DNA of 34,233 nucleotides from an uncultured Pelagibacteraceae bacterium (GTDB lineage Bacteria > Pseudomonadota > Alphaproteobacteria > Pelagibacterales > Pelagibacteraceae): assembly GCA_902547825.1 (NCBI GenBank), contig CACCPE010000001.1, forward strand, positions 92,501-126,733. Reading direction: 5' to 3'. Below are positions 1 through 11,735 of the stretch, piece after piece (positions within the stretch are counted from its first letter, which is position 1; each line of letters begins with the position of its first letter). The notes under the pieces were generated by a model. The model was given only the letters and a program-made list of their open reading frames with translations. It searched no databases and had not been told where the DNA came from. The translations under genes and the position numbers were made by a program.

Positions 1-136
1 CATCTAAGCGGGAAACCCACCTTAAAACTAGTTCTTCCCACAGAGCCGTAGTAGACCACTACGTTGATAGGCTGGATGTGGAAGCGCGGTAACGCGTGCA
101 GCTGACCAGTACTAATAGCTCAATTGGCTTGATTTA
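1..136 (+). rRNA. rrl: 23S ribosomal RNA, 3' end (partial)
   Basis: The opening 130 bases match the conserved 3' end of bacterial 23S rRNA: the block around GAGCCGTAGTAGACCACTAC, then GTTGATAGGCTGGATGTGGA and GACCAGTACTAATAGCTCAA, ending near GGCTTGA. The 5' part lies outside the window. The exact 3' terminus is uncertain by several bases. No 5S rRNA follows anywhere in the window, although 5S normally lies within a few hundred bases of 23S. This placement matches the SAR11 HVR2 island, which is known to separate 23S from 5S. Confidence 0.96.
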
Positions 137-214
137 TGCACTGAAAAAAATTTTTAAATAAAATTTACATAAAATAACCTAGTCAAATTAACATAATTCT
201 ATCGAAAATAACCC

Positions 215-243
215 TTTACTGTTCAATATTTGAACGTTAAAGT
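215..243 (+). promoter_or_regulatory. Predicted promoter of polysaccharide operon 1
   Basis: A TTTACT box (215-220) and a weaker TAAAGT box (238-243) are separated by 17 bases, and a perfect palindrome fills the spacer. The same CCTTTACT-GTTCAA arrangement recurs at the regulator promoter near 10795, where the -10 is a perfect TATAAT. Transcription would start near 250 and give a leader of about 80 bases before the first gene. The remainder of 137-328 holds no gene; it contains only A/T-rich spacer, this promoter and the leader. Read-through from the rRNA operon is also possible. Confidence 0.6.
221..235. promoter_or_regulatory. Palindromic operator GTTCAA-N3-TTGAAC, site 1
   Basis: The sequence GTTCAATATTTGAAC is a perfect 6-3-6 inverted repeat lying exactly between the -35 and -10 boxes of the operon 1 promoter. 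It matches, arm for arm, the two operators at 10801 and 10824 in front of the winged-helix regulator. All three are followed by GT. The obvious candidate binder is the regulator encoded at 10841. A protein bound here would block or remodel the promoter spacer. Confidence 0.8.
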
Positions 244-316
244 TACACATTAAATTGATTACACTGATCGTCTAAAAGTTGTATGATTAATTACAAGAAA
301 AAACTGTTATTTTTAG

Positions 317-327
317 AAGTGCGGAGC
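317..327 (+). promoter_or_regulatory. ops-like antitermination element, copy 1
   Basis: The 11-mer AAGTGCGGAGC ends one base before the ATG of the first gene of operon 1. It recurs exactly at 11703-11713 in the leader of the second long operon, with ATTTTTA shortly upstream in both copies. The core GCGGAGC resembles the core GCGGTAGC of the enterobacterial ops element recognised by RfaH, minus one T, and could form the same small GC/GC hairpin in the non-template strand. A NusG-family paralogue is encoded at 11160. A short A5/T5 inverted repeat (299-314) lies just upstream. The GGAG inside the element sits too close to the ATG to be a good ribosome binding site. Confidence 0.65.
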
Positions 328-328
328 T

Positions 329-1300
329 ATGTCAAGTTCTAGAAAAAAAATTATATTATTTAATAATAACACTTTCCCCCCCGGTTTTGTTTCTAAAATA
401 AAAAGAAATTTTAAAAATTTTAATTTTATAATATTAAAAGATCATGAATTTAAAAAACTAAACAATCAATTAGAAAGCTCAAATGCTTTGATCAACTGCC
501 CTCGTAAATATTTTAATGAAAAATTAGTAAAAAGATTTACAAATATGGATTGGGTACACACTTCAGCAGCAGGTGTAGATGCTTTCATTAATCCATTATT
601 TTCAAATTTAGAAGTTTGTTTTACTAATGGTAAAATCCTACAAGGTCCCGAAGTAGCTGACCATGCGATTGGGATTATATTATCTTTTTCAAGAAATATT
701 CATCATTATTATAAAAATTCAAATATAAAAAATATTAAGAGACCAATCGAACTTTTTAAAAAAAAAGCTTTGATAGTGGGTTTTGGAGGTATTGGCAGAT
801 GTATTTCAGAAAGATTAACAGGCTTCGGTATGGTAATAGATGTCATAGCGGAGGAGCTACCCGCATTAACAAATGAAGTAAATTCTTTTTTTTCAATCCA
901 AAGATTAAACAAAATTTCTAAAAATTATGACGTGATTATCTCAGCAGCACCGCTAACTTTAAAAACTAAAAAAATTTTTGATTATGAGTTTTTCAAATCA
1001 ATGAAAAAAAATAGCATATTTGTAAATATTTCTAGAGGAAAGCTAGTTGATACTAAGGCACTCCAAAAAAAAAATATTCATAAAAAATTTTTAGGTTTAG
1101 GTTTAGATGTTACATATCCTGAACCTTTACCAAAAAACCATTTTTTAAGAAAACTCCCAAATGTAATTTTAACAAATCACAGCGCAGGTCTATCAGACAA
1201 TAACCGGTTAAGAGCTTATGAGCTTATGTACGAAAATTTATCAAGATATTATAATAATCAAACTCTTTTAAACAGAGTTGATAAAATTGAAGGATATTAA
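329..1300 (+). CDS. D-2-hydroxyacid dehydrogenase family protein
   Basis: This 323-residue protein is a NAD(P)-dependent D-isomer-specific 2-hydroxyacid dehydrogenase, the family that interconverts 2-keto and D-2-hydroxy acids. The nucleotide-binding motif GFGGIGR is at residues 151-157. The catalytic triad typical of the family is visible: Arg236 in NISRG, Glu265 in YPEP and His284 in TNHSAG. Length is normal. It is the first gene of operon 1, directly behind the ops-like element, and overlaps nothing upstream. Its substrate is unknown; in this setting it probably makes or removes an acid precursor of a surface-glycan substituent. The ATG at 329 is the only reasonable start before the first beta strand. 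Confidence 0.85.
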   Translation: MSSSRKKIILFNNNTFPPGFVSKIKRNFKNFNFIILKDHEFKKLNNQLESSNALINCPRKYFNEKLVKRFTNMDWVHTSAAGVDAFINPLFSNLEVCFTNGKILQGPEVADHAIGIILSFSRNIHHYYKNSNIKNIKRPIELFKKKALIVGFGGIGRCISERLTGFGMVIDVIAEELPALTNEVNSFFSIQRLNKISKNYDVIISAAPLTLKTKKIFDYEFFKSMKKNSIFVNISRGKLVDTKALQKKNIHKKFLGLGLDVTYPEPLPKNHFLRKLPNVILTNHSAGLSDNNRLRAYELMYENLSRYYNNQTLLNRVDKIEGY

Positions 1301-1301
1301 A

Positions 1302-1979
1302 ATGGATGATTTTCCTTTAGTCCAAGAGTCTGCAATTTCTCAGTACGAAAAAGCTGCGAAAGGAGACGTAAAACTGTATCCATCACTAGAGCTTGTAAGA
1401 TTAATAAAGTGGTTTTTGAAATCAAATAAAGGAAAAATGTTAGAATACGGATTTGGTAGTGGCTGCAACACAATACATCTTCTTAAAAGCGGATATAATG
1501 TTTATGGTCTTGACGTTTCAACTAATTGGATAAAAAAAACAAATTTAAGAATAAAAAAAATTAAAAGCATAAAGAGAAAACCTAAACTTATTCGTCTTTT
1601 ACCAAATTCAAAAAAACTTCCTTTTCCAACAAATTATTTTAATTATATAATAGCTATGAGCGTCTTATCTCTTCTGGGAAATCGAAGGAAAGTTAAAAAC
1701 TTACTTGAGGAATTTAGAAGAATCTTAAAACCTAATGGAAAAATTATTTTAGATATTAACGATCAAAAATCAGTTTTCTCTGGAAAAGATAACAAAATAA
1801 AGAATAACATATATAAAGCAAAACCTGTTGATAGTTACATAAGCACGTATTGTTTGAGAACAGAAAAAGATTTTAAAAATCTAATCAAACCATATTTTAA
1901 AATAAAAGATACCGGTTTTTCTTCTCATAAATTAATGAATAGAACTATTACAGAGTTTATTATCTGTGCAACTAAATAA
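1302..1979 (+). CDS. Class I SAM-dependent methyltransferase
   Basis: The product is about 225 residues. Motif I of class I methyltransferases is clear (LEYGFGSGCNTIHLL, about residues 47-61 from the chosen start), followed by an acidic strand end (GLDVS) and a conserved block near FRRILKPNGKIILDI. This is a Methyltransf_11-type fold that probably methylates a sugar or small precursor; the substrate is not identifiable. The ATG at 1302 is preferred over an in-frame TTG at 1278 because AAGGA lies at 1289-1293 with good spacing and the TTG would force a 23-base overlap with the dehydrogenase. The pseC gene follows after nine bases. Confidence 0.82.
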   Translation: MDDFPLVQESAISQYEKAAKGDVKLYPSLELVRLIKWFLKSNKGKMLEYGFGSGCNTIHLLKSGYNVYGLDVSTNWIKKTNLRIKKIKSIKRKPKLIRLLPNSKKLPFPTNYFNYIIAMSVLSLLGNRRKVKNLLEEFRRILKPNGKIILDINDQKSVFSGKDNKIKNNIYKAKPVDSYISTYCLRTEKDFKNLIKPYFKIKDTGFSSHKLMNRTITEFIICATK

Positions 1980-1988
1980 ACTTAACAA

Positions 1989-3164
1989 ATGATTACTTAT
2001 AGTAAACAAACAATTATTAAAAAAGATATTGATGCCGTTTCAAAAGTTCTAAGATCAAATTTTTTAACACAAGGTCCTAAAGTTCCACAATTTGAAAATA
2101 AAGTTAAAAAATTTACAGGTTCAAAATATTGTTTGGCAGTAAATAGCGCATCTTCAGGTTTATATGTAGCATGCAAAGCATTAAATTTAAAAAAAAAGGA
2201 TATTGTATGGACGGTTACTAATTCATTTGTTGCTACAGCAAACTGTATAGTCCTCAATAATTATAAAATAGATTTTGTTGATATAGATAAAAGTACCTGG
2301 AATATATCTTTAGAAAATTTAAAAAATAAATTAATTAAAGCCAAAAAACAAAAAAAAACACCTAAAGCTTTAATCGTAGTACATTTAGCTGGATTACCAG
2401 TGGATCCAATAGAACTTAAAAGGTTATCTAATATTTATAAATTTAAGATAATCGAAGACGCTGCTCACTCAATCGGATCAACATATTATGGAAAAAAAGT
2501 TGGGTGTTGTAAATGGTCTGATATAACAGTTTTTAGCTTTCATCCAGTAAAAATTATAACAACCGCAGAAGGGGGATGTATCGCTACAAATAATAAAATT
2601 TTTTTTGAAAGAATGAAATTAACAAGAAACAATGGAATAACTAGAGAAAAAAAATTTTACAAAAATAAAAACTTGGGAGATTGGTATTATGAGCAACAAA
2701 GCTTAGGTTTTAACTTTAGAATGAATGATTTACAAGCAGCATTAGGTATCTCGCAATTAGGAAAAATTAATTATTTCATAAAAAAAAGAAATAAAATAGC
2801 AAATGTTTATAAAAAAAAATTGAAAAATTTACCACTTACATTTCAAAAAATTGGGAAAAATTTTTCAAGTTCTTATCATCTTTTTATAATAAAAATAAAT
2901 ATCGATGATAAACTTATACATAAAAGATTATTTGATTTAATGAGAAGAAACAATATTTTTGTCAATCTCCACTACCTCCCAATACATCTTCATCCTTACT
3001 ATCAAAAGCTAGGCTTTAGAAAAAATGATTTTCCTAACTCTGAAGATTATAGTAATAAATCAATGTCTATTCCGATTTATCCGAGTTTGAGCAAAAAGAA
3101 TATGCAAAAGGTGATAAATATATTAAAAAAATTTTTTAAAAAATTTAATGAAAAAAAAAACTAA
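1989..3164 (+). CDS. pseC: PseC: UDP-4-amino-4,6-dideoxy-N-acetyl-beta-L-altrosamine transaminase
   Basis: This PLP-dependent DegT/DnrJ/EryC1/StrS aminotransferase performs the second step of pseudaminic acid synthesis, transferring an amino group to the 4-keto sugar made by PseB. The PLP lysine is Lys188 in FSFHPVKIITTAEGG. Family blocks include SNFLTQGPKVPQFE near the N-terminus, EDAAHSIG (about 156-163), WYYEQQSLGFNFRMNDLQAA, and a C-terminal LHYLPIHLHPYY block that resembles PseC more than other DegT enzymes. Length, 391 residues, is normal. It overlaps the downstream PIG-L deacetylase gene by 17 bases. Its partner PseB is not in this operon but at 14578. Confidence 0.9.
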   Translation: MITYSKQTIIKKDIDAVSKVLRSNFLTQGPKVPQFENKVKKFTGSKYCLAVNSASSGLYVACKALNLKKKDIVWTVTNSFVATANCIVLNNYKIDFVDIDKSTWNISLENLKNKLIKAKKQKKTPKALIVVHLAGLPVDPIELKRLSNIYKFKIIEDAAHSIGSTYYGKKVGCCKWSDITVFSFHPVKIITTAEGGCIATNNKIFFERMKLTRNNGITREKKFYKNKNLGDWYYEQQSLGFNFRMNDLQAALGISQLGKINYFIKKRNKIANVYKKKLKNLPLTFQKIGKNFSSSYHLFIIKINIDDKLIHKRLFDLMRRNNIFVNLHYLPIHLHPYYQKLGFRKNDFPNSEDYSNKSMSIPIYPSLSKKNMQKVINILKKFFKKFNEKKN

Positions 3165-3852
3165 AAAAGTTTTGGTTATTGCTGCTCACCCAGATGATGA
3201 GGTGCTAGGCTGTGGCGCTACATTGTATAAATTAAGTAAAAAAAAATATAAAATAAAAGTTATTTTTTTAAGTGACGGTGAGTCCTCACGTAAAATCAAT
3301 AATAAAAAAATTATTAAAGACTTGATCAAAAAGCGAGAAAATCAAGCAATTAAATCTGCCAAAATTTTAGGTATTAAAAAGCTAAAATTTTTCCGACTTC
3401 CAGATAATAAATTAGACAGTTTTGATTTATTAAAAATTAATCAAATAATAGAAAATGAAATTAAACTTTTTAAACCAAATATTATATTTACTCACTCAAA
3501 TCACGATTTAAACGTTGATCACGTTGTTGCTCATAACGCTACAATTACTGCTTGCAGGGCTTATAAATTTAGATTTATTAATTCCATCTATGCTTTTGAA
3601 ATTTCATCAAATACAGAAAGTAACTTTAAAATATCGAAAAAAAAATTTTCACCAAATGTATTTATTGATATAAAAAATGAGATTACAAAAAAACTTGAAG
3701 CTCTTTCCCAATATAAAAATGAGCTAGAAAAATGGCCGCATCCAAGATCTTTAAAAGCCTTAAAAATTTTAGCGCATTACCGTGGGACACAATCAGGTTT
3801 AGATTCTGCCGAAGCTTTTCAGCTAATTAGAGAGAATAAGAAATTAATTTAA
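3148..3852 (+). CDS. PIG-L/LmbE family N-acetyl-sugar deacetylase
   Basis: This 234-residue protein has the hallmark zinc-binding motif AHPDDE at residues 13-18 and a second His/Asp cluster (HSNHDLNVDH, about 116-125) that supplies the third zinc ligand. The family removes N-acetyl groups from amino sugars such as GlcNAc-PI, mycothiol precursors and BshB substrates. It lies between pseC and the pseG-pseH fusion, overlapping both, so it may deacetylate a pseudaminic acid intermediate or finished sugar so that another acyl or amidine group can be installed. That role is inference; deacetylation is not part of the standard Pse pathway. Confidence 0.85.
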   Translation: MKKKTKKVLVIAAHPDDEVLGCGATLYKLSKKKYKIKVIFLSDGESSRKINNKKIIKDLIKKRENQAIKSAKILGIKKLKFFRLPDNKLDSFDLLKINQIIENEIKLFKPNIIFTHSNHDLNVDHVVAHNATITACRAYKFRFINSIYAFEISSNTESNFKISKKKFSPNVFIDIKNEITKKLEALSQYKNELEKWPHPRSLKALKILAHYRGTQSGLDSAEAFQLIRENKKLI

Positions 3853-5264
3853 TGAAAATTGCATTCAGAGTGGACAGTTCTAGTCACTTTGGGCTTGGTC
3901 ATGTTTCAAGATGTATAACATTGGCAAAAGAATTTAAGTTAAAAGGCTGTAAGGTAATATTTATTTGCAAGGAAATAGACGATACATCTAAAATTATTTT
4001 AAAAAATAACAATATATTATTAGTAAAAATAAATAAATATTTAAGTAATATACAAGACGGATTAACGACAAATAAAATAATTAAAAAAAATAAGATTAAT
4101 ATTATTTTTTTAGATAGCTATGTTCTCGGATTAAGTTGGGAAAAAATTGTTTCACAAGAGTGTAAGATTGCTTGGATTGATGATTACTACAAAAGGGAGA
4201 GCGTCGCTGATTTTTATATAAATTACCATTCATTTTTATATGGAAAAAAATTAAATAAATTAAAAAAAAATTGTAAAAAACTTATTGGATTAGAATACTT
4301 AATACTAAAAAAAAGACCAAAAAAAATTTTTAGAAAGAGACAAGTGTTTTGTTATTTTGGATCAGTTGATAGTAAATGTTTGACAGAAAAACTTATAAAC
4401 ACTCTTAAAAAAAATAACAAATTAAAATTTAAATATAATATTTTTGTAACTAAGAATTTTAATTCTAATTTTCATCTGAACAAAAAGAAAGTTAATATAA
4501 TAACCACTTTCAAAAAAAATATTACAAAACATATGCTTTCCTCTGAAAAAATTTTAATACAAGGAGGAGTTTCTTTTTATGAAGCTCTTTTCTTAGGAAA
4601 TGATGTCACAGCTTTTCCAATTAATCAGTTTCAGAAAAAAATCATGCGAAGTTTGAGATTTTTTTTGAAATTCAAAACGATTAATAATTTTAAAAATTTA
4701 GAAGGAAATATTTTTAATAACAAAGGATATTCAAAAGAGAATTTTAATAAAAATTTACTTGATGATTTTGGAAAAAGGAGAATAGTAGATTTTATAATCG
4801 GAAAAAACAAATATTCTTTAAGAAAATTTGAAAATAAAGATTTACTATCTCTTTATAATTTAAGAATGGATTACCTAACTAGAAAATATGCAATAAACCA
4901 GAACGTCTTTAATTTTAGACAACACCAAAAATTCTTTAAAATAAAACAAAACCCTAAGACAAAAATATATATTTACTATTCAAACCACAATTTTGTTGGT
5001 CAAGTAAGGCTAGATAAGTTAAAAAATTGTTTTGAAATAGATTATGGAATTAACAGCATATATCGAAATAAACGATTATCTTATAAAATGTTGAAATTAG
5101 TATTAGATAAAATAAAAAATTCTAAATTAAAGTTTATCGCAAAAGTAAAAAGAAATAATTTAGCATCAATAAGAATTTTTGAAAAATTAGGATTTAACTT
5201 AATTTCAAAACAAAACAAGGTAATTATTTTTGAAAAAAAATATGGAAAAAAGAAAAGTTTTTAA
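3852..5264 (+). CDS. pseG: PseG-PseH fusion: UDP-sugar hydrolase plus GNAT acetyltransferase
   Basis: The 470-residue product has two domains. Residues about 1-310 resemble PseG, a GT-B-like hydrolase that removes UDP from UDP-2,4-diacetamido-2,4,6-trideoxy-L-altrose; the signature FGLGHVSRC carries His17, the position of the catalytic histidine in Campylobacter PseG. Residues about 318-465 form a GNAT domain ending in NNLASIRIFEKLGF, expected to be PseH, the 4-amino N-acetyltransferase. PseH acts immediately before PseG, so the fusion joins consecutive steps. The acetyl-CoA loop (YRNKRLSYKML) departs from the usual R/Q-x-x-G-x-G/A. The start codon overlaps the upstream stop by one base. Confidence 0.85.
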   Translation: MKIAFRVDSSSHFGLGHVSRCITLAKEFKLKGCKVIFICKEIDDTSKIILKNNNILLVKINKYLSNIQDGLTTNKIIKKNKINIIFLDSYVLGLSWEKIVSQECKIAWIDDYYKRESVADFYINYHSFLYGKKLNKLKKNCKKLIGLEYLILKKRPKKIFRKRQVFCYFGSVDSKCLTEKLINTLKKNNKLKFKYNIFVTKNFNSNFHLNKKKVNIITTFKKNITKHMLSSEKILIQGGVSFYEALFLGNDVTAFPINQFQKKIMRSLRFFLKFKTINNFKNLEGNIFNNKGYSKENFNKNLLDDFGKRRIVDFIIGKNKYSLRKFENKDLLSLYNLRMDYLTRKYAINQNVFNFRQHQKFFKIKQNPKTKIYIYYSNHNFVGQVRLDKLKNCFEIDYGINSIYRNKRLSYKMLKLVLDKIKNSKLKFIAKVKRNNLASIRIFEKLGFNLISKQNKVIIFEKKYGKKKSF

Positions 5265-6261
5265 AATACAAAAAAAAATAATTAATCAAAAAAGCAAGAC
5301 ATTTGTGATTAGTGAAATTGGTATAAATCATGAGGGAAGTTTAAGTAAATGTATTAAAATGATTGAGCTTTCTAAGAAAGCTAAAGCTGATGCCGTTAAA
5401 TTACAAACAATTAATCCAGATTTAAGTTATGTTAAAAACTCTAAATCCTTTAAAGAATTTCAAAATTGTAATTTTAATGATGAGGAACTCTTTAAGATTA
5501 TAAACTATGCTAAAAAAATTGGAATTATATTTATTTCAACCCCGGGCTCATTTGAAGAAGTAGAAAAGTTGAAAAAGTTTAAAGCAGACGGTATTAAAAT
5601 TTCTTCAGGTTTGCTCACTAATTACCCACTTATTTCTCACGCGGCAAAAAATTTTAAATCAATAATTATTTCAACCGGAATGGCTTATTTAAGAGAGATT
5701 AAACAAGCAGTATCAGCATGTAAAAATAATAAAAATTTAGCAATTTTAAAATGCACTTCATTGTATCCATCAAAAGATAACGAAATTAATTTAAATTCAA
5801 TAGAGGATTTTCATAAACACTTTAAAAATATTATTGGCTTCTCAGATCATACAAAAGATGAACTTTCATGCTTAGCTGCAGTCTCTAAAGGTGCAAAAAT
5901 TATAGAAAAACATTTTACACTAAATACTAAAAGAAAAGGTAAAGACCATCACATATCATTAAATCCTAGTAACTTTAAGATCATGATTGAAAAAATAAGA
6001 AGAATTGACCTCATGCAGGGTAAGAGAAAAATTTACCCAGAAAAAAAAGAAATTTTAAACAGAAAATTATTTCATAGATATATTCTCGCTAAGAAAGATA
6101 TTTTTAAAGGAGAGAAATTTTCTTTACAAAACCTTTCAATAAAAAGGCAAATTATAAGTTCGAGAAAAGACTTGAAGCCATTATATCTAAATAGGTTAAT
6201 AGGAAAAAAATCTAAAAGACAAATTAAAAAAGATAAACCACTAATTATCAAAGATCTTTAA
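5242..6261 (+). CDS. Nonulosonic acid synthase (NeuB/PseI family), PseI candidate
   Basis: This is a sialic-acid-synthase family protein of about 339 residues that condenses a six-carbon sugar with phosphoenolpyruvate. The N-terminal TIM barrel begins with ISEIGINHEGS and contains KISSG, STGMAYLREI, GFSDHT and IEKHFTL; a C-terminal SAF (antifreeze-like) domain is expected at about 280-339. By operon context (PseC, PseG-PseH) it should be the pseudaminic acid synthase, but the KDHHISLNP block is not the typical PseI version, so specificity is uncertain. The ATG at 5242 is preferred over an in-frame TTG at 5230. A second, more canonical NeuB paralogue lies at 19040. Confidence 0.8.
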   Translation: MEKRKVFKIQKKIINQKSKTFVISEIGINHEGSLSKCIKMIELSKKAKADAVKLQTINPDLSYVKNSKSFKEFQNCNFNDEELFKIINYAKKIGIIFISTPGSFEEVEKLKKFKADGIKISSGLLTNYPLISHAAKNFKSIIISTGMAYLREIKQAVSACKNNKNLAILKCTSLYPSKDNEINLNSIEDFHKHFKNIIGFSDHTKDELSCLAAVSKGAKIIEKHFTLNTKRKGKDHHISLNPSNFKIMIEKIRRIDLMQGKRKIYPEKKEILNRKLFHRYILAKKDIFKGEKFSLQNLSIKRQIISSRKDLKPLYLNRLIGKKSKRQIKKDKPLIIKDL

Positions 6262-6273
6262 TGAAAATTTGAA

Positions 6274-8049
6274 ATGTGCGGCATAGTAGGAATATACAGT
6301 TTAAATAATCAAAAAATCCCTAATTTAGAATTTAGAATTAAAAAAATGATCAATATGATCAAATATAGAGGTCCTGATAACTCTGGTCACTTTTTTAATA
6401 AAAAAAAAACTTTTGGTATGGCAAATAATCAATTATCTATTGTTTCACCAAAAAAGAATATAAAATTACCTCTTACATATGATAACGAAAATTTTCTATC
6501 TTTTAATGGAGAAATTTATAATTATCTTGACTTAAAGTTAAAGTATAAAATCCCAAATAATAACTTTAGGTATAACACTGATACCGAAGTCCTTTACTAT
6601 TTTTTAAATCAAGAAAAAATAAATTTATCTGAAATAAATGGAATTTGGTCTTTCGCTCACTATAATGACAAAGAACACGTATTAAAGTTAGGTAGAGACA
6701 TTCTTGGAGAAAGAAACCTTTATTATTATGTAAATCAAAATGAACTGATTTTTTCTTCTGAAATTAGACCTATATTTGCTGCAAATAATTTATCTTACTC
6801 TATTAACAATATTGGAATTCAAGATATGTGGAAGTATTATAGTTGCAGAGATAATCTAACTGTAATTAAAGATTGCTTTAAATTAACTCCTGGAAGATAT
6901 TTAATATTCAAGAAAAATAGTGGATCAACACCATTTAAAGTTGATCTTCCTTTGTTAAGGCCAGAAAAATATTTTGATTTGATAAAAAGAAATAGTCAGC
7001 AAGAAATACAAAAAAAATTTAAGAAATTAATGAGTAGAGAGCTGGAGATAAGATATCCAAAAAATGTAAAATGTTTCTCTTCTTTAAGTGGCGGATTAGA
7101 TAGTACTTACCAAAACTTTTTATTAAGGAATTTAGAAAAAAAGATTAATACAATTTATGCAATAAGTAACGATTTTAATTTTATTAAAAGAAAAGGAATT
7201 AGTGAAATGGATTTATCGAAATTAATCTCTAAAAAAATAATCTCATCGCATACTTTTATTGATTTAAGGAAAGACTTTTTTCAAGAATCACTAAAATCTT
7301 CGCAAAATACTTTAGAGACTTTAGATCCTGCTATACTTAATTTTTCAATTTTTTCAAAATTTTTAAAGAATAGAGGCTCTAAAGTTTTATTGTGTTCAGA
7401 TGGACCAGACGAATTTTTATGCGGTTATTATAAAGATATAAATAATTTTTTTTATTCCAAAAAAAGATTTCTCAAAAATCCTTATCATAAGATTATTAAA
7501 AATAAAAAATTTTATGAATCAATATTTCAAAAGGTAGAGAAAGAGACAGATTTTTTTTCTACACCAGATCGTAGATATAAAAATGTTGAAAAGTATTTAG
7601 AAAAATCGCAATTAAAAGCATTAATATATGCAACAAAATCATTACCAGAATATATAAATATTAGAGCAGACAAAGGTTTTATGTTGAATTCTATTGAGGT
7701 ACGACAACCGTTCTTGTCAAAAAATTTGGTAGAGTTTCTTTGTGCTCTCCCATCTAAATTTCGTGTTTCTAAAAACCTTAAAGGTAAAATTTTTTTAAGG
7801 AACGAAGTAGCAAAAATATCTAAAATAGTTTCTCAATATAAGAAAATCGGATTTGGTAAAAATTTAATCTCAGATGATAAGATTTTTAAAAAGTTAGAGC
7901 CAATTATAAATGATACAATAAATGATAAAAAGATAATGCAGAAATTAAATTTTAAAAAAGGGGCAGAAAAGACTTTTTTAAAATCTAATAGGTCCCAAAA
8001 GTATATGGTTTTTTCATTAATAAGATCTTTAAAAAATTTAAAAAATTAG
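6274..8049 (+). CDS. asnB: Glutamine-hydrolysing asparagine synthetase-like amidotransferase
   Basis: The 591-residue protein starts MCGIVGIY; after loss of Met the exposed Cys is the glutaminase nucleophile, which fixes the start. The N-terminal class II glutaminase domain (about 1-200, with RGPDN and SFNGEIYN) is followed by an asparagine synthase ATP-pyrophosphatase domain with SGGLDS near residue 270 and a SDGPDEFLCGY block. In polysaccharide islands such enzymes often amidate sugar carboxylates or make amidines rather than asparagine. Here it sits after Pse genes and directly before an ATP-grasp ligase, with a TAG-ATG junction, so sugar-acid amidation is plausible. Housekeeping asparagine synthesis cannot be excluded. 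Confidence 0.85.
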   Translation: MCGIVGIYSLNNQKIPNLEFRIKKMINMIKYRGPDNSGHFFNKKKTFGMANNQLSIVSPKKNIKLPLTYDNENFLSFNGEIYNYLDLKLKYKIPNNNFRYNTDTEVLYYFLNQEKINLSEINGIWSFAHYNDKEHVLKLGRDILGERNLYYYVNQNELIFSSEIRPIFAANNLSYSINNIGIQDMWKYYSCRDNLTVIKDCFKLTPGRYLIFKKNSGSTPFKVDLPLLRPEKYFDLIKRNSQQEIQKKFKKLMSRELEIRYPKNVKCFSSLSGGLDSTYQNFLLRNLEKKINTIYAISNDFNFIKRKGISEMDLSKLISKKIISSHTFIDLRKDFFQESLKSSQNTLETLDPAILNFSIFSKFLKNRGSKVLLCSDGPDEFLCGYYKDINNFFYSKKRFLKNPYHKIIKNKKFYESIFQKVEKETDFFSTPDRRYKNVEKYLEKSQLKALIYATKSLPEYINIRADKGFMLNSIEVRQPFLSKNLVEFLCALPSKFRVSKNLKGKIFLRNEVAKISKIVSQYKKIGFGKNLISDDKIFKKLEPIINDTINDKKIMQKLNFKKGAEKTFLKSNRSQKYMVFSLIRSLKNLKN

Positions 8050-9054
8050 ATGAAAACAAAAAATTATAATATTTTATTGACATGTGCAGGCGGAGGTCTT
8101 TCAAAATTTAATTCTTATTACCTAAAAAAAAATCCTAATAAAAAGATTAAAGTAATTGGTGTAGATATAAAAAAGATCAACAATTCAAATAAATTTGACA
8201 AGTTCTATAAAGTTCCTAGACCTGAAAGTCCTTTATATTTACCTAAAATCAAATCAATAGTTAAAAAAGAGAAAATTTCACTAATTATACCAACAGCCGA
8301 TGAAGAAGTAATTAAGTTTTCTAAAGATAAAAAAAAATTTGAAAAAAAAGGAGTTAAAATAGCATGTGAAACTTTAAGAAATGTTAAAATATTTACTGAT
8401 AAATTTAAAACCTTAAAATTCTTAAAGAAAAATAAAATTGATAATCAAAATTTTTTTTTAGTAAAAAGCTTAAAAGAACTTAAAGAAAAATTTATAATTT
8501 TTGATGAATTTGTTTTAAAACCTGTAATTGGAAGAGGTGGAAGAGGAGTCTTTATTATTAAAAAAAAAATAAAGAAAACTCTTTTTTTGAATTACGGAAG
8601 AGAGATAAATACTGATATCGATAAATTTAAAAAATATTTTTTACAAAAAATAACTGAATTCCCGCTTATTATTACACCTAAATTGCAAGAACCAGTCTAT
8701 GATATAGATTTTCTGTCTTTCAAGGGAAATTTAAAAAAAATAGTAATGAGAAGAAGGGTGATTTCAGAAGAGCCAAACTCTGGACATATATTTTGTAAAG
8801 TTCCAGGCTATATAAAAAAAAAATTTTCAAAAATTTGCAAAAAACTATACCTCAATGGCCTTTATGACTCAGATTTGATGAAAGATAAAAAAGGTATTTT
8901 TAGAATTATTGAAATAAATTCAAGACCAAGCGGGAGTGTGAGTACAACTTGTGCGGCTGGAGTAAATCTTCTTTCTGATTTAATTGATCTGAAAATAAAT
9001 AAAAAAATCAATTTAAACAAAAAAATTAAAAGAAGAACTGTTAAGCTTTATTAA
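8050..9054 (+). CDS. ATP-grasp ligase (carbamoyl-phosphate synthase large-chain-like)
   Basis: This 334-residue ATP-grasp protein has an N-terminal preATP-grasp Rossmann-like part (ILLTCAGGG, then IPTADEEV near residue 81), the ATP-binding loop LKPVIGRGGRGVFII at 156-170, and the metal- and ATP-binding block IIEINSRPSGS near 288. The family joins a carboxylate to an amine or other nucleophile through an acyl phosphate. It starts immediately after the asnB-like stop codon and is the last gene of operon 1. It may attach an amino acid or acyl group to an amino sugar freed by the PIG-L deacetylase; this is inference. A hairpin terminator overlaps its stop codon. Confidence 0.82.
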   Translation: MKTKNYNILLTCAGGGLSKFNSYYLKKNPNKKIKVIGVDIKKINNSNKFDKFYKVPRPESPLYLPKIKSIVKKEKISLIIPTADEEVIKFSKDKKKFEKKGVKIACETLRNVKIFTDKFKTLKFLKKNKIDNQNFFLVKSLKELKEKFIIFDEFVLKPVIGRGGRGVFIIKKKIKKTLFLNYGREINTDIDKFKKYFLQKITEFPLIITPKLQEPVYDIDFLSFKGNLKKIVMRRRVISEEPNSGHIFCKVPGYIKKKFSKICKKLYLNGLYDSDLMKDKKGIFRIIEINSRPSGSVSTTCAAGVNLLSDLIDLKINKKINLNKKIKRRTVKLY

Positions 9055-10794: not shown

Positions 10795-10823
10795 TTTACT
10801 GTTCAAATCTTGAACGTTATAAT
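10795..10823 (+). promoter_or_regulatory. Autoregulated promoter of the regulator/NusG-like pair
   Basis: TTTACT (10795-10800) and a perfect TATAAT (10818-10823) are spaced by exactly 17 bases. The spacer is filled by operator 2, and operator 3 begins at the base after the -10. The start of transcription would fall near 10830, inside operator 3, giving a leader of only about 11 bases before the ATG at 10841 and no ribosome binding site. This geometry strongly suggests regulation by a protein that binds the palindromes. The rest of the intergenic region (10699-10794) is A/T-rich with no other clear element. Confidence 0.8.
10801..10815. promoter_or_regulatory. Palindromic operator GTTCAA-N3-TTGAAC, site 2
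   Basis: GTTCAAATCTTGAAC is a perfect 6-3-6 palindrome located in the spacer between the -35 and -10 boxes, exactly as site 1 is in the operon 1 promoter. The CCTTTACT in front and the GTTA behind are also shared with site 1. Confidence 0.85.
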
Positions 10824-10838
10824 GTTCAATTATTGAAC
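10824..10838. promoter_or_regulatory. Palindromic operator GTTCAA-N3-TTGAAC, site 3
   Basis: GTTCAATTATTGAAC is a third perfect palindrome. It starts directly after the TATAAT box and ends two bases before the regulator start codon. It lies 23 bases, about two helical turns, from site 2, so two dimers could bind the same face and occlude the whole promoter. Site 3 is unique to the regulator promoter; operon 1 has a single site. Confidence 0.85.
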
Positions 10839-10840
10839 GT

Positions 10841-11158
10841 ATGAAAGTTAAACCAGACCAAGATCATTTTGAAGTTCTTAGGAAAATTGATAAGACTCCT
10901 AATTATTCTCAAAGACAACTTGCAAAAGGCTTGGGTTTCAGTCTTGGTAAATTAAATTATTGTCTAAAAGCTTTACAAGCTAAAGGTTTTGTAAAAATTA
11001 AAAATTTTAAACAACAACCTAAGAAAATTACTTACATGAGATATGTATTAACTCCTAGAGGCATTGCCGAAAGGTCGAGATTAACTCTTAATTTTATGAA
11101 AAGAAAAATGCAAGAGTACGATGAGCTTAAAAAAGAATTAAAACAAAATAAAAAATAA
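10841..11158 (+). CDS. EPS-associated MarR-type winged-helix regulator
   Basis: This 105-residue DNA-binding protein is an almost pure winged helix-turn-helix: helix 2/turn/recognition helix at about 18-50 (SQRQLAKGLGFSLGKLNYCL), then KALQAKGFVKIKNF and a wing ending YVLTPRGIAERSRLT, followed by a charged C-terminal helix (about 80-105) likely used for dimerisation. It matches what I know of the small MarR-family EPS-associated transcriptional regulators found in exopolysaccharide loci. Its ATG lies two bases behind operator 3, so it very probably binds its own promoter and, through operator 1, controls operon 1. It is followed after one base by the NusG-like gene. Whether it represses or activates is not visible. 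Confidence 0.85.
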   Translation: MKVKPDQDHFEVLRKIDKTPNYSQRQLAKGLGFSLGKLNYCLKALQAKGFVKIKNFKQQPKKITYMRYVLTPRGIAERSRLTLNFMKRKMQEYDELKKELKQNKK

Positions 11159-11159
11159 A

Positions 11160-11657
11160 ATGTGGACGGTTGTCAAATATAAAAATAATTATTTTGGAAT
11201 ATTAAAAAAGAAACTAATAGAGACTCTAGGTGATGACACGAAGTTTTACACACCTACAATTAAAATAAGAAGATTTCAAAAAAATAAATTTGTTCAAAAA
11301 GACTTAAGTTTGTTAGGAGATTATTTTTTTTGTTACAGCAAAAAGTTTGAGAATGAAAATATAATTCAAAGTTTGAAATATCTCAAAGGATTAAAATATT
11401 TTTTATCAGGATTTAACCGATCACAATTAGATATTAAAAACTTTATATCAAAATGTAAAGAGTCAGAAGATAAAGACGGATATCTATCAAATAATTTTAT
11501 AAAGCTATGTATTGATGCAAAATATAAGTTTACCTCTGGGCCGTTTATAGAAATAATTTTTAAAATAATAGAGCTTCAAAGAAATTCCATGAAAATATTA
11601 CTTGGAAATTTTGAAACAACAATAAAAAAAAAAGAGTATTTTTTTACAAGAGTATAA
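11160..11657 (+). CDS. NusG paralogue, RfaH-like specialised antiterminator
   Basis: The 165-residue protein has the NusG architecture. The NGN domain starts with MWTVVKYKNNYFGILKKKL, equivalent to the WYVV start of NusG, and LSLLGDYFFCYS (about 49-60) corresponds to the PLFPGYVFV strand. A C-terminal KOW domain (about 119-165) carries KFTSGPFIEIIFKI and KILLGNFETTI, the ITSGPF and VLL-F blocks of NusG. It diverges strongly from housekeeping NusG and shares an operon with the EPS-associated regulator. An ops-like element follows 45 bases downstream and recurs in front of operon 1. The likely role is loading onto RNA polymerase at these elements to suppress termination and polarity in the two long sugar operons. 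Confidence 0.82.
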   Translation: MWTVVKYKNNYFGILKKKLIETLGDDTKFYTPTIKIRRFQKNKFVQKDLSLLGDYFFCYSKKFENENIIQSLKYLKGLKYFLSGFNRSQLDIKNFISKCKESEDKDGYLSNNFIKLCIDAKYKFTSGPFIEIIFKIIELQRNSMKILLGNFETTIKKKEYFFTRV

Positions 11658-11680
11658 TTTTTTTGTATATGCCTTACCTG

Positions 11681-11704
11681 TTTGTAGAAATTAATTTTTA
11701 CAAA
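11681..11704 (+). other. A/T-rich inverted repeat adjoining ops-like copy 2
   Basis: Bases 11681-11690 can pair with 11695-11704 (one G-T pair) around a TTAA loop, forming a 10-bp hairpin that runs into the start of the ops-like element. There is no T-run behind it, so it is not a standard terminator. A smaller A5/T5 repeat precedes copy 1 at 299-314. A pause or alternative-folding role at the loading site is possible but unproven. Confidence 0.4.
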
Positions 11705-11713
11705 GTGCGGAGC
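11703..11713 (+). promoter_or_regulatory. ops-like antitermination element, copy 2
   Basis: AAGTGCGGAGC is an exact repeat of 317-327, located 45 bases after the NusG-like stop codon and 22 bases before the first gene of the second operon. In this copy TGC-GGA-GCA can form a three-pair hairpin in the non-template strand, similar to the ops hairpin read by RfaH. I saw no other copy of the GCGGAGC core in the window. The following gene lacks a recognisable ribosome binding site, which is reminiscent of RfaH-controlled genes where the factor recruits the ribosome. Confidence 0.68.
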
Positions 11714-11735
11714 ATTGGTTAAATAGAATTTTCAA

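Follow-up and report, generated by a model that had tools for sequence, protein, structure and literature searches.

The locus and its genomic setting

The window (the whole stretch of DNA analysed here, 34,233 nucleotides) belongs to an 894-kb, 71%-complete genome assembly and begins with the last 136 nt of a 23S rRNA gene (1–136, forward strand; Rfam RF02541, E 5e-28), which forms the left border of a genomic island. HVR2 of SAR11, which consists largely of genes for cell-surface sugars, is located between the 23S and 5S rRNA genes (PMC2217521), and since the window opens in the 3' end of the 23S rRNA, we identify the island as HVR2, the SAR11 O-chain cluster. Two long operons, delimited by open reading frames and Pfam matches, code for sugar and envelope enzymes. 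Operon 1 (329–9054, forward strand, about 8.7 kb) encodes among others a 2-hydroxyacid dehydrogenase, a methyltransferase, a DegT aminotransferase, an acetyltransferase and an asparagine synthase-like protein, while operon 2 (11736–33765, at least 22 kb, entirely on the forward strand to the contig end) encodes NeuB, a CMP-sugar cytidylyltransferase, an aminotransferase, epimerases, an ABC transporter, a carbamoyltransferase, a radical SAM protein and others. Operon 2 (window 11736–34233) runs off the contig, and the 5S border of the island lies outside the view. Between the operons lie two genes on the opposite strand, followed by a promoter, a gene for a MarR_EPS-family regulator and a gene for a NusG-like protein.

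For comparison we assembled the best 80 MarR_EPS loci from a scan of 84,980 species genomes, nearly all of them from Pelagibacteraceae, which together with the window give a set of 81 loci. Two contigs filed as Neomarinimicrobiota (L003, with a SAR11-type 23S end) and Woesearchaeota (L025) resemble SAR11 HVR2 and are probably mis-binned.

A MarR_EPS regulator with conserved operators

The regulator (10841–11158, forward strand) is a winged-helix protein of 105 aa that belongs to family TIGR04176 (E 1.2e-36; 124.9 bits, cut-off 88), in agreement with the original prediction of a MarR-type, EPS-associated regulator from the sequence alone. It is preceded by a sigma-70-like promoter, TTTACT-17-TATAAT (10795–10823, forward strand), which was detected in a scan with 10/12 matches and recurs in a logo over 67 loci. 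The palindromic operator GTTCAANNNTTGAAC occurs in three exact copies in the window, two at this promoter and one at that of operon 1, as had been proposed. Operator 1 (10801–10815, forward strand) lies in the spacer of the marR-nusG promoter, and operator 2 (10824–10838, forward strand) begins directly past the -10 box and covers the expected transcription start; both are conserved in relatives. The third copy, GTTCAATATTTGAAC (221–235, forward strand), sits inside the spacer of a putative operon 1 promoter (TTTACT, 17-nt spacer, TAAAGT; 215–243, forward strand) which we recognized by direct reading. It is weaker than the marR promoter and falls under the threshold of the scanner, and its spacing is identical.

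In 67 of the 81 loci an exact palindrome lies no more than 130 bp from the start of MarR, and 12 more have a version with one mismatch there (79/81), compared to a background of 35 exact palindromes elsewhere in 1.42 Mb; the co-occurrence of regulator and palindrome expected for related islands is thus seen. The palindrome accompanies the MarR gene with or without a NusG gene. The operator takes up the spacer of the promoter, which points to repression as the probable mode of action of MarR_EPS; the direction of regulation is equally a presumption. In five relatives (L026, L035, L063, L065, L079) TTTACT followed by the operator is also found at other operons, as secondary operators, which indicates that the MarR_EPS regulon probably extends past its own operon. 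The MarR gene stands directly after the 23S rRNA gene in many relatives, a slot that is filled by operon 1 in the window (100–262), and the operon 1 promoter can be aligned with the marR promoters that these relatives have behind the 23S gene. The operon 1 leader may be the remnant of a lost, excised or moved copy of the module.

A NusG paralogue encoded in tandem

The second gene of the regulatory operon (11160–11657, forward strand, 165 aa) starts 1 nt past the MarR_EPS stop codon on the same strand. It had been described as a divergent NusG-family gene, of which the family part holds at the level of fold, while the gene is divergent only in the sense of a diverged sequence, being arranged in tandem with the regulator. 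As a single sequence the protein lies under every NusG, RfaH and UpxY family cut-off: it has no match to Pfam NusG (PF02357; 2/52 relatives at E<0.01) and none up to E 1 to the RfaH profile TIGR01955, which weakly matches 6/52 relatives (best E 3e-5), and a single-sequence PDB search gave chance matches only. Its best profile is UpxY (NF033644), with 27.8 bits against a cut-off of 100, and UpxY is also matched by 28/52 relatives, others matching RfaH, LoaP or NusG. An AF2 model built from the 52 relatives (pLDDT 87) combines an NGN-like domain with a beta-barrel at the C-terminus, a prediction that would still leave room for an RfaH-type switch from an alpha-helical autoinhibited form. The best solved neighbours in Foldseek are NusG (E 1.3e-7) and the RfaH-ops complex (E 8.6e-7), and VIA-align gave Z 9.2 for RfaH and Z 8.7 for NusG. 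Because of the weak UpxY profile match, the confident AF2 model and these structural matches, we assign the protein to the NusG/Spt5 superfamily (NGN + KOW fold), an assignment that fails with Pfam on the single sequence and holds at the level of the family and of the modelled fold.

The SAR11 NusG-like proteins group in a single clade (100/100) that is distinct from both NusG and RfaH. A housekeeping NusG is encoded by a separate gene, in a separate clade, in 9/13 genomes of the genus and was not found in the window's own incomplete assembly; Rho was found in 13/13 genomes checked. Among 299 phylum-level genomes no member of the NusG-like family turned up outside Pelagibacteraceae, and a search of viral contigs returned nothing. 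In the literature searched we found no published work on NusG or antitermination in SAR11.

An element strictly linked to the NusG-like gene

An 11-base element, AAGTGCGGAGC, had been noted at the head of both sugar operons. Its two copies (317–327 and 11703–11713) are indeed the only exact ones in the 894-kb assembly, and within the window no further match exists at up to 2 mismatches. The statistics of the 11-mer are not significant in the window alone and are extreme across relatives. Over 67 distinct leaders the element extends beyond the originally noted 11 bases to GTGCGGAGCNWTG, with CGGAG invariant, T11 present in 60/67 and G12 in 59/67. Positions 2 and 8 are changed in one of the 67 elements only (L146), where G2 to A is accompanied by C8 to T, a compensatory change that keeps the pair. 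In the window the extended forms, which we consider candidate recruitment and pause elements, are AAGTGCGGAGCTATG (317–331, forward strand; predicted pause at T330/G331, from a match in the ops register, PMC5995543) and AAGTGCGGAGCATTG (11703–11717, forward strand; predicted pause at T11716/G11717), the latter conserved in relatives.

The NusG-like gene lies directly downstream of MarR in 52/81 loci, and 50 of these 52 carry an exact GTGCGGAG about 45 nt past its stop codon, the other 2 having one mismatch. The element is absent within the next 1.8 kb in 29/29 MarR loci without the NusG gene, a few of which are truncated by the end of their contig. A search of 247 Pelagibacteraceae genomes gave 65 matches to the pattern GTGCGGAGCNNTG, against 1 for the reversed control. 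The NusG-like gene is present in 70 of these genomes, and among 69 full-length copies 58 are followed 43–81 nt downstream by the exact pattern and 11 by close variants. The element is therefore found about 40–81 nt 3' of every full-length NusG-like gene examined (52/52 and 69/69, two sets that share genomes and are not independent), and in the related islands covered the regulator/NusG pair never occurs without it, which strengthens the idea, already raised for this DNA, of a dedicated antitermination and transcription switch. Orphan matches to the pattern (in 4/177 gene-less genomes, and at extra places in two gene-bearing ones) were discarded, as they lie inside coding genes or on a G+C-rich contaminant. 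One G+C-rich contig in a Pelagibacteraceae genome (L157; G048 contig C12) is probably such contamination. A second leader copy, that of operon 1, was found only in the window's genome.

The first gene 3' of the element varies by locus, the genes being unrelated and their ATG lying at a distance of 10–62 nt, and we conclude from this that the element does not belong to a coding gene. The GGAG upstream of the next ATG, which often stands 17–18 nt from the element start, could in principle serve the operon's first gene as a Shine-Dalgarno sequence. We nevertheless reject a translation signal as very improbable, given the spread of 10–62 nt, the additional conservation of GTGC, C8 and T11-G12, and the occurrence of the element only together with the NusG gene. 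The element stands where the conserved regulators give way to variable genes, and this position would also fit a mark for cassette exchange or recombination that flanks the variable sugar genes and hitch-hikes with the regulator pair. The element is however absent from MarR-only islands with similar variable genes and occurs in one copy per island everywhere except in the window, and such a mark leaves unexplained both the ops register and the covariation of the hairpin described below. The conservation of pause register and hairpin that we see in outgroups speaks against it directly; we regard this explanation as extremely improbable and have likewise set it aside.

A covarying hairpin precedes the element

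Directly 5' of the operon 2 element the RNA is predicted to fold into a hairpin, TTTGTAGAAA-loop-TTTTTACAAA (11681–11704, forward strand), whose arms covary among relatives. RNA folding also predicts a hairpin in the operon 1 leader (TCTAAAA.../...TTTTTAGA; 271–317, forward strand), with a long loop containing an inner stem and a 3' arm that ends right at the element. In relatives the hairpin is A+U-rich, typically TTGTAAAA...TTTTTACAA, and its 3' arm ends 1–4 nt short of the element. The arms change jointly across loci (GACTT/AAGTC, AACTAG/CTAGTT, AAGCT/AGCTT and others). When left arms were exchanged between loci, the score of the own stem was 15.9 versus 13.1 ± 0.3 for swapped partners, and for the 22 loci with divergent, non-canonical arms it was 13.8 versus 9.4 ± 0.6, with a maximum of 11.0 in 500 swaps; this is a custom test in which relatedness is not fully corrected. 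RNAalifold on a MAFFT alignment of the leaders gave no consensus stem because differing loop lengths put the arms out of register, and the evidence for covariation therefore rests on the swap test. In an Rfam search of the window only the 23S rRNA reached the gathering score, and the leader alone gave chance matches and no JUMPstart.

A hairpin standing before an operon might suggest that the NusG paralogue does nothing to promote expression and acts as a decoy, or as an attenuator stopping the operon at the hairpin. A scan for intrinsic terminators found no terminator-like site in either leader, for which reason we rejected a reading of the hairpin as a terminator, and NusG paralogues of known function promote long operons (PMC7593976), so that a decoy or attenuator appears highly improbable.

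A second question is which part of the leader is read by the protein. LoaP of Bacillus binds a leader RNA hairpin, aided by a downstream pause (PMC12691694), and the SAR11 leader, with its conserved and covarying hairpin, resembles this system in combining an RNA hairpin with a pause. The NusG paralogue could accordingly read the RNA hairpin and not the DNA, GTGCGGAGCNWTG being a mere pause that provides time for binding. However, sequence and loop of the hairpin vary widely in SAR11 while the CGGAG core is invariant, which is the reverse of the conserved UNCG hairpin of LoaP, and a mere pause would need just G-10 and TG and no invariant CGGAG. The inspected SAR11 leaders have no UNCG loop and no conserved hairpin sequence, and the target class differs from that of LoaP. 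We thus regard recognition of the RNA alone as unlikely, and favour loading of the NusG paralogue at the element itself.

Comparison with ops and RfaH

In Escherichia coli, RfaH is recruited at ops, G1G2C3G4G5T6A7G8C9G10T11G12, where RNA polymerase pauses at U11 and where, in the non-template strand, a C3:G8 pair closes a loop from which T6 is flipped into RfaH (PMC5995543). The window has no match to canonical ops (GGCGGTAGNNTG) at up to one mismatch. In an ungapped alignment with ops (GGCGGTAGCGTG), however, the SAR11 element keeps G2, C3, G4, G5, T11 and G12 and lacks the loop base T6. Its core, GC-GGA-GC, corresponds to the ops core GC-GGTA-GC minus T6, and as one base has been added before TG, the pause register is kept despite this loss. 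The RfaH-type pause register G2...T11 G12, together with a hairpin-forming core, was found by sequence match across the 67 elements. At 11707–11713 the non-template strand could form the mini-hairpin GC-GGA-GC, whose predicted stability as an isolated DNA hairpin is marginal (-0.8 or 0 kcal/mol with standard parameters).

Both cores fall into the GNA/GNNA class of mini-hairpins (PMC4686876). Known examples, d(GCGNAGC)/d(GCGNNAGC) and the promoter hairpins of phage N4 vRNAP, the latter likewise built on a loop of GNA type in which G and A form a sheared pair (PMC4496689), share with the possible SAR11 hairpin the GNA loop, at least 2 closing G-C pairs and extrusion from DNA (PMC4686876, PMC4496689), but serve as aptamers or phage promoters and not in the loading of an elongation factor.

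The SAR11 system is thus like RfaH-ops in that a factor with NusG fold is combined with a consensus-pause element heading long envelope-sugar operons and in that a short non-template hairpin is possible. A basic residue is also shared: R73 of RfaH, which became a contact to ops late (PMC7593976), has K or R as its counterpart in 50/52 SAR11 proteins. It differs in that the element lacks T6, the base read by RfaH, that the leader has no Rfam match comparable to JUMPstart, and that the factor is encoded inside its target operon, lies under the cut-off of the RfaH model and forms its own clade. UpxY of Bacteroides is a comparable case, a resident antiterminator heading a capsular operon. Its profile is the one that the SAR11 protein matches best, although the score stays far under the cut-off and no shared element is known.

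Counterparts outside SAR11

How operon-encoded NusG paralogues are recruited has been called unknown, E. coli RfaH being the sole member understood in detail, and one RfaH cluster, CL4, is HTH-associated (Wang et al., 2020, PMC7593976). The counterparts with canonical ops that we found outside SAR11, like the covarying hairpin, go beyond the original prediction. In locus L191 the regulator and an RfaH-like gene are succeeded by a perfectly paired TCCGGGTGA/TCACCCGGA hairpin and then by an exact GGCGGTAGCGTG. Among 34 alphaproteobacterial RfaH-like loci outside SAR11, a set that includes the four loci that first drew attention to the pattern, 13 have GCGG(T/C)AGC within 110 nt past the stop codon, mostly with a strong abutting hairpin, against a background of 7/888 windows (0.8% per window; p 4e-19). 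The other 21/34 are without the element, which is hence not universal in these loci. A hairpin abutting GCGG(T/C)AGC after HTH-RfaH-like pairs was seen at L191, L205, L206, L208, L213, L219, L221, L223, L225, L233, L234 and L236. At L208, which also has the canonical hairpin and ops downstream, a SAR11-type GTGCGGAGCAATG (2089–2101) overlaps the start codon of the RfaH-like gene and may be due to chance.

Like the SAR11 module, loci such as L191, L205, L213 and L221, which may belong to CL4, combine in this order a regulator, a NusG paralogue, a hairpin and an ops-type element, here 48–102 nt past the stop codon. They carry GCGG(T/C)AGC in place of the GCGGAGC of SAR11, and, apart from that of L191, most of their regulators exceed the 105 aa of MarR_EPS. 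The same order of gene, hairpin and ops outside SAR11 indicates that the SAR11 system is a diverged, A+T-rich version of a broader module, and an HTH-RfaH pair followed by hairpin and ops-type element apparently represents a general recruitment leader.

A model for the control of O-chain operons

We consider it probable that a resident NusG paralogue is loaded at a hairpin and ops-type pause heading the long O-chain operons, with MarR_EPS controlling initiation. The anatomy of the locus, its conservation and homology to known factors suggest the following course. MarR_EPS would bind GTTCAANNNTTGAAC and repress its own operon through two operators and operon 1 through one. Once transcription starts, the first part of this transcript would yield the NusG paralogue. 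Past the nusG gene, RNA polymerase would produce the hairpin and then meet GTGCGGAGCNWT^G, the G-10...T-1 G+1 form of the consensus pause, where the non-template strand in the bubble could fold as GC-GGA-GC, one base shorter than the ops hairpin GC-GGTA-GC. The NusG paralogue may load here, displace the housekeeping NusG and take the polymerase through the long A+T-rich sugar operon against Rho and pausing, acting on operon 2 in cis and on operon 1 in trans.

With somewhat less confidence, we lean towards a broader proposal, namely that in Alphaproteobacteria a combination of RNA hairpin and adjoining ops-type pause recruits the NusG paralogues encoded within operons, and that in SAR11 its non-template part has become a GNA triloop mini-hairpin (ops without T6), protein and element having co-evolved a new recognition code while the pause register was kept.

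The signal and its helper protein always occur together, and the element probably marks where operon-encoded helpers are recruited. It offers a concrete sequence with predictions down to the single base, dozens of variants found in nature, among them a compensatory pair, and control islands that lack both gene and element. As far as searched, a 2025 study of SAR11 O-chain islands (PMC11898729) mentions no such regulator, and the system described here is a first candidate for the switch that turns on the hypervariable O-chain islands in the ocean's most abundant bacteria.
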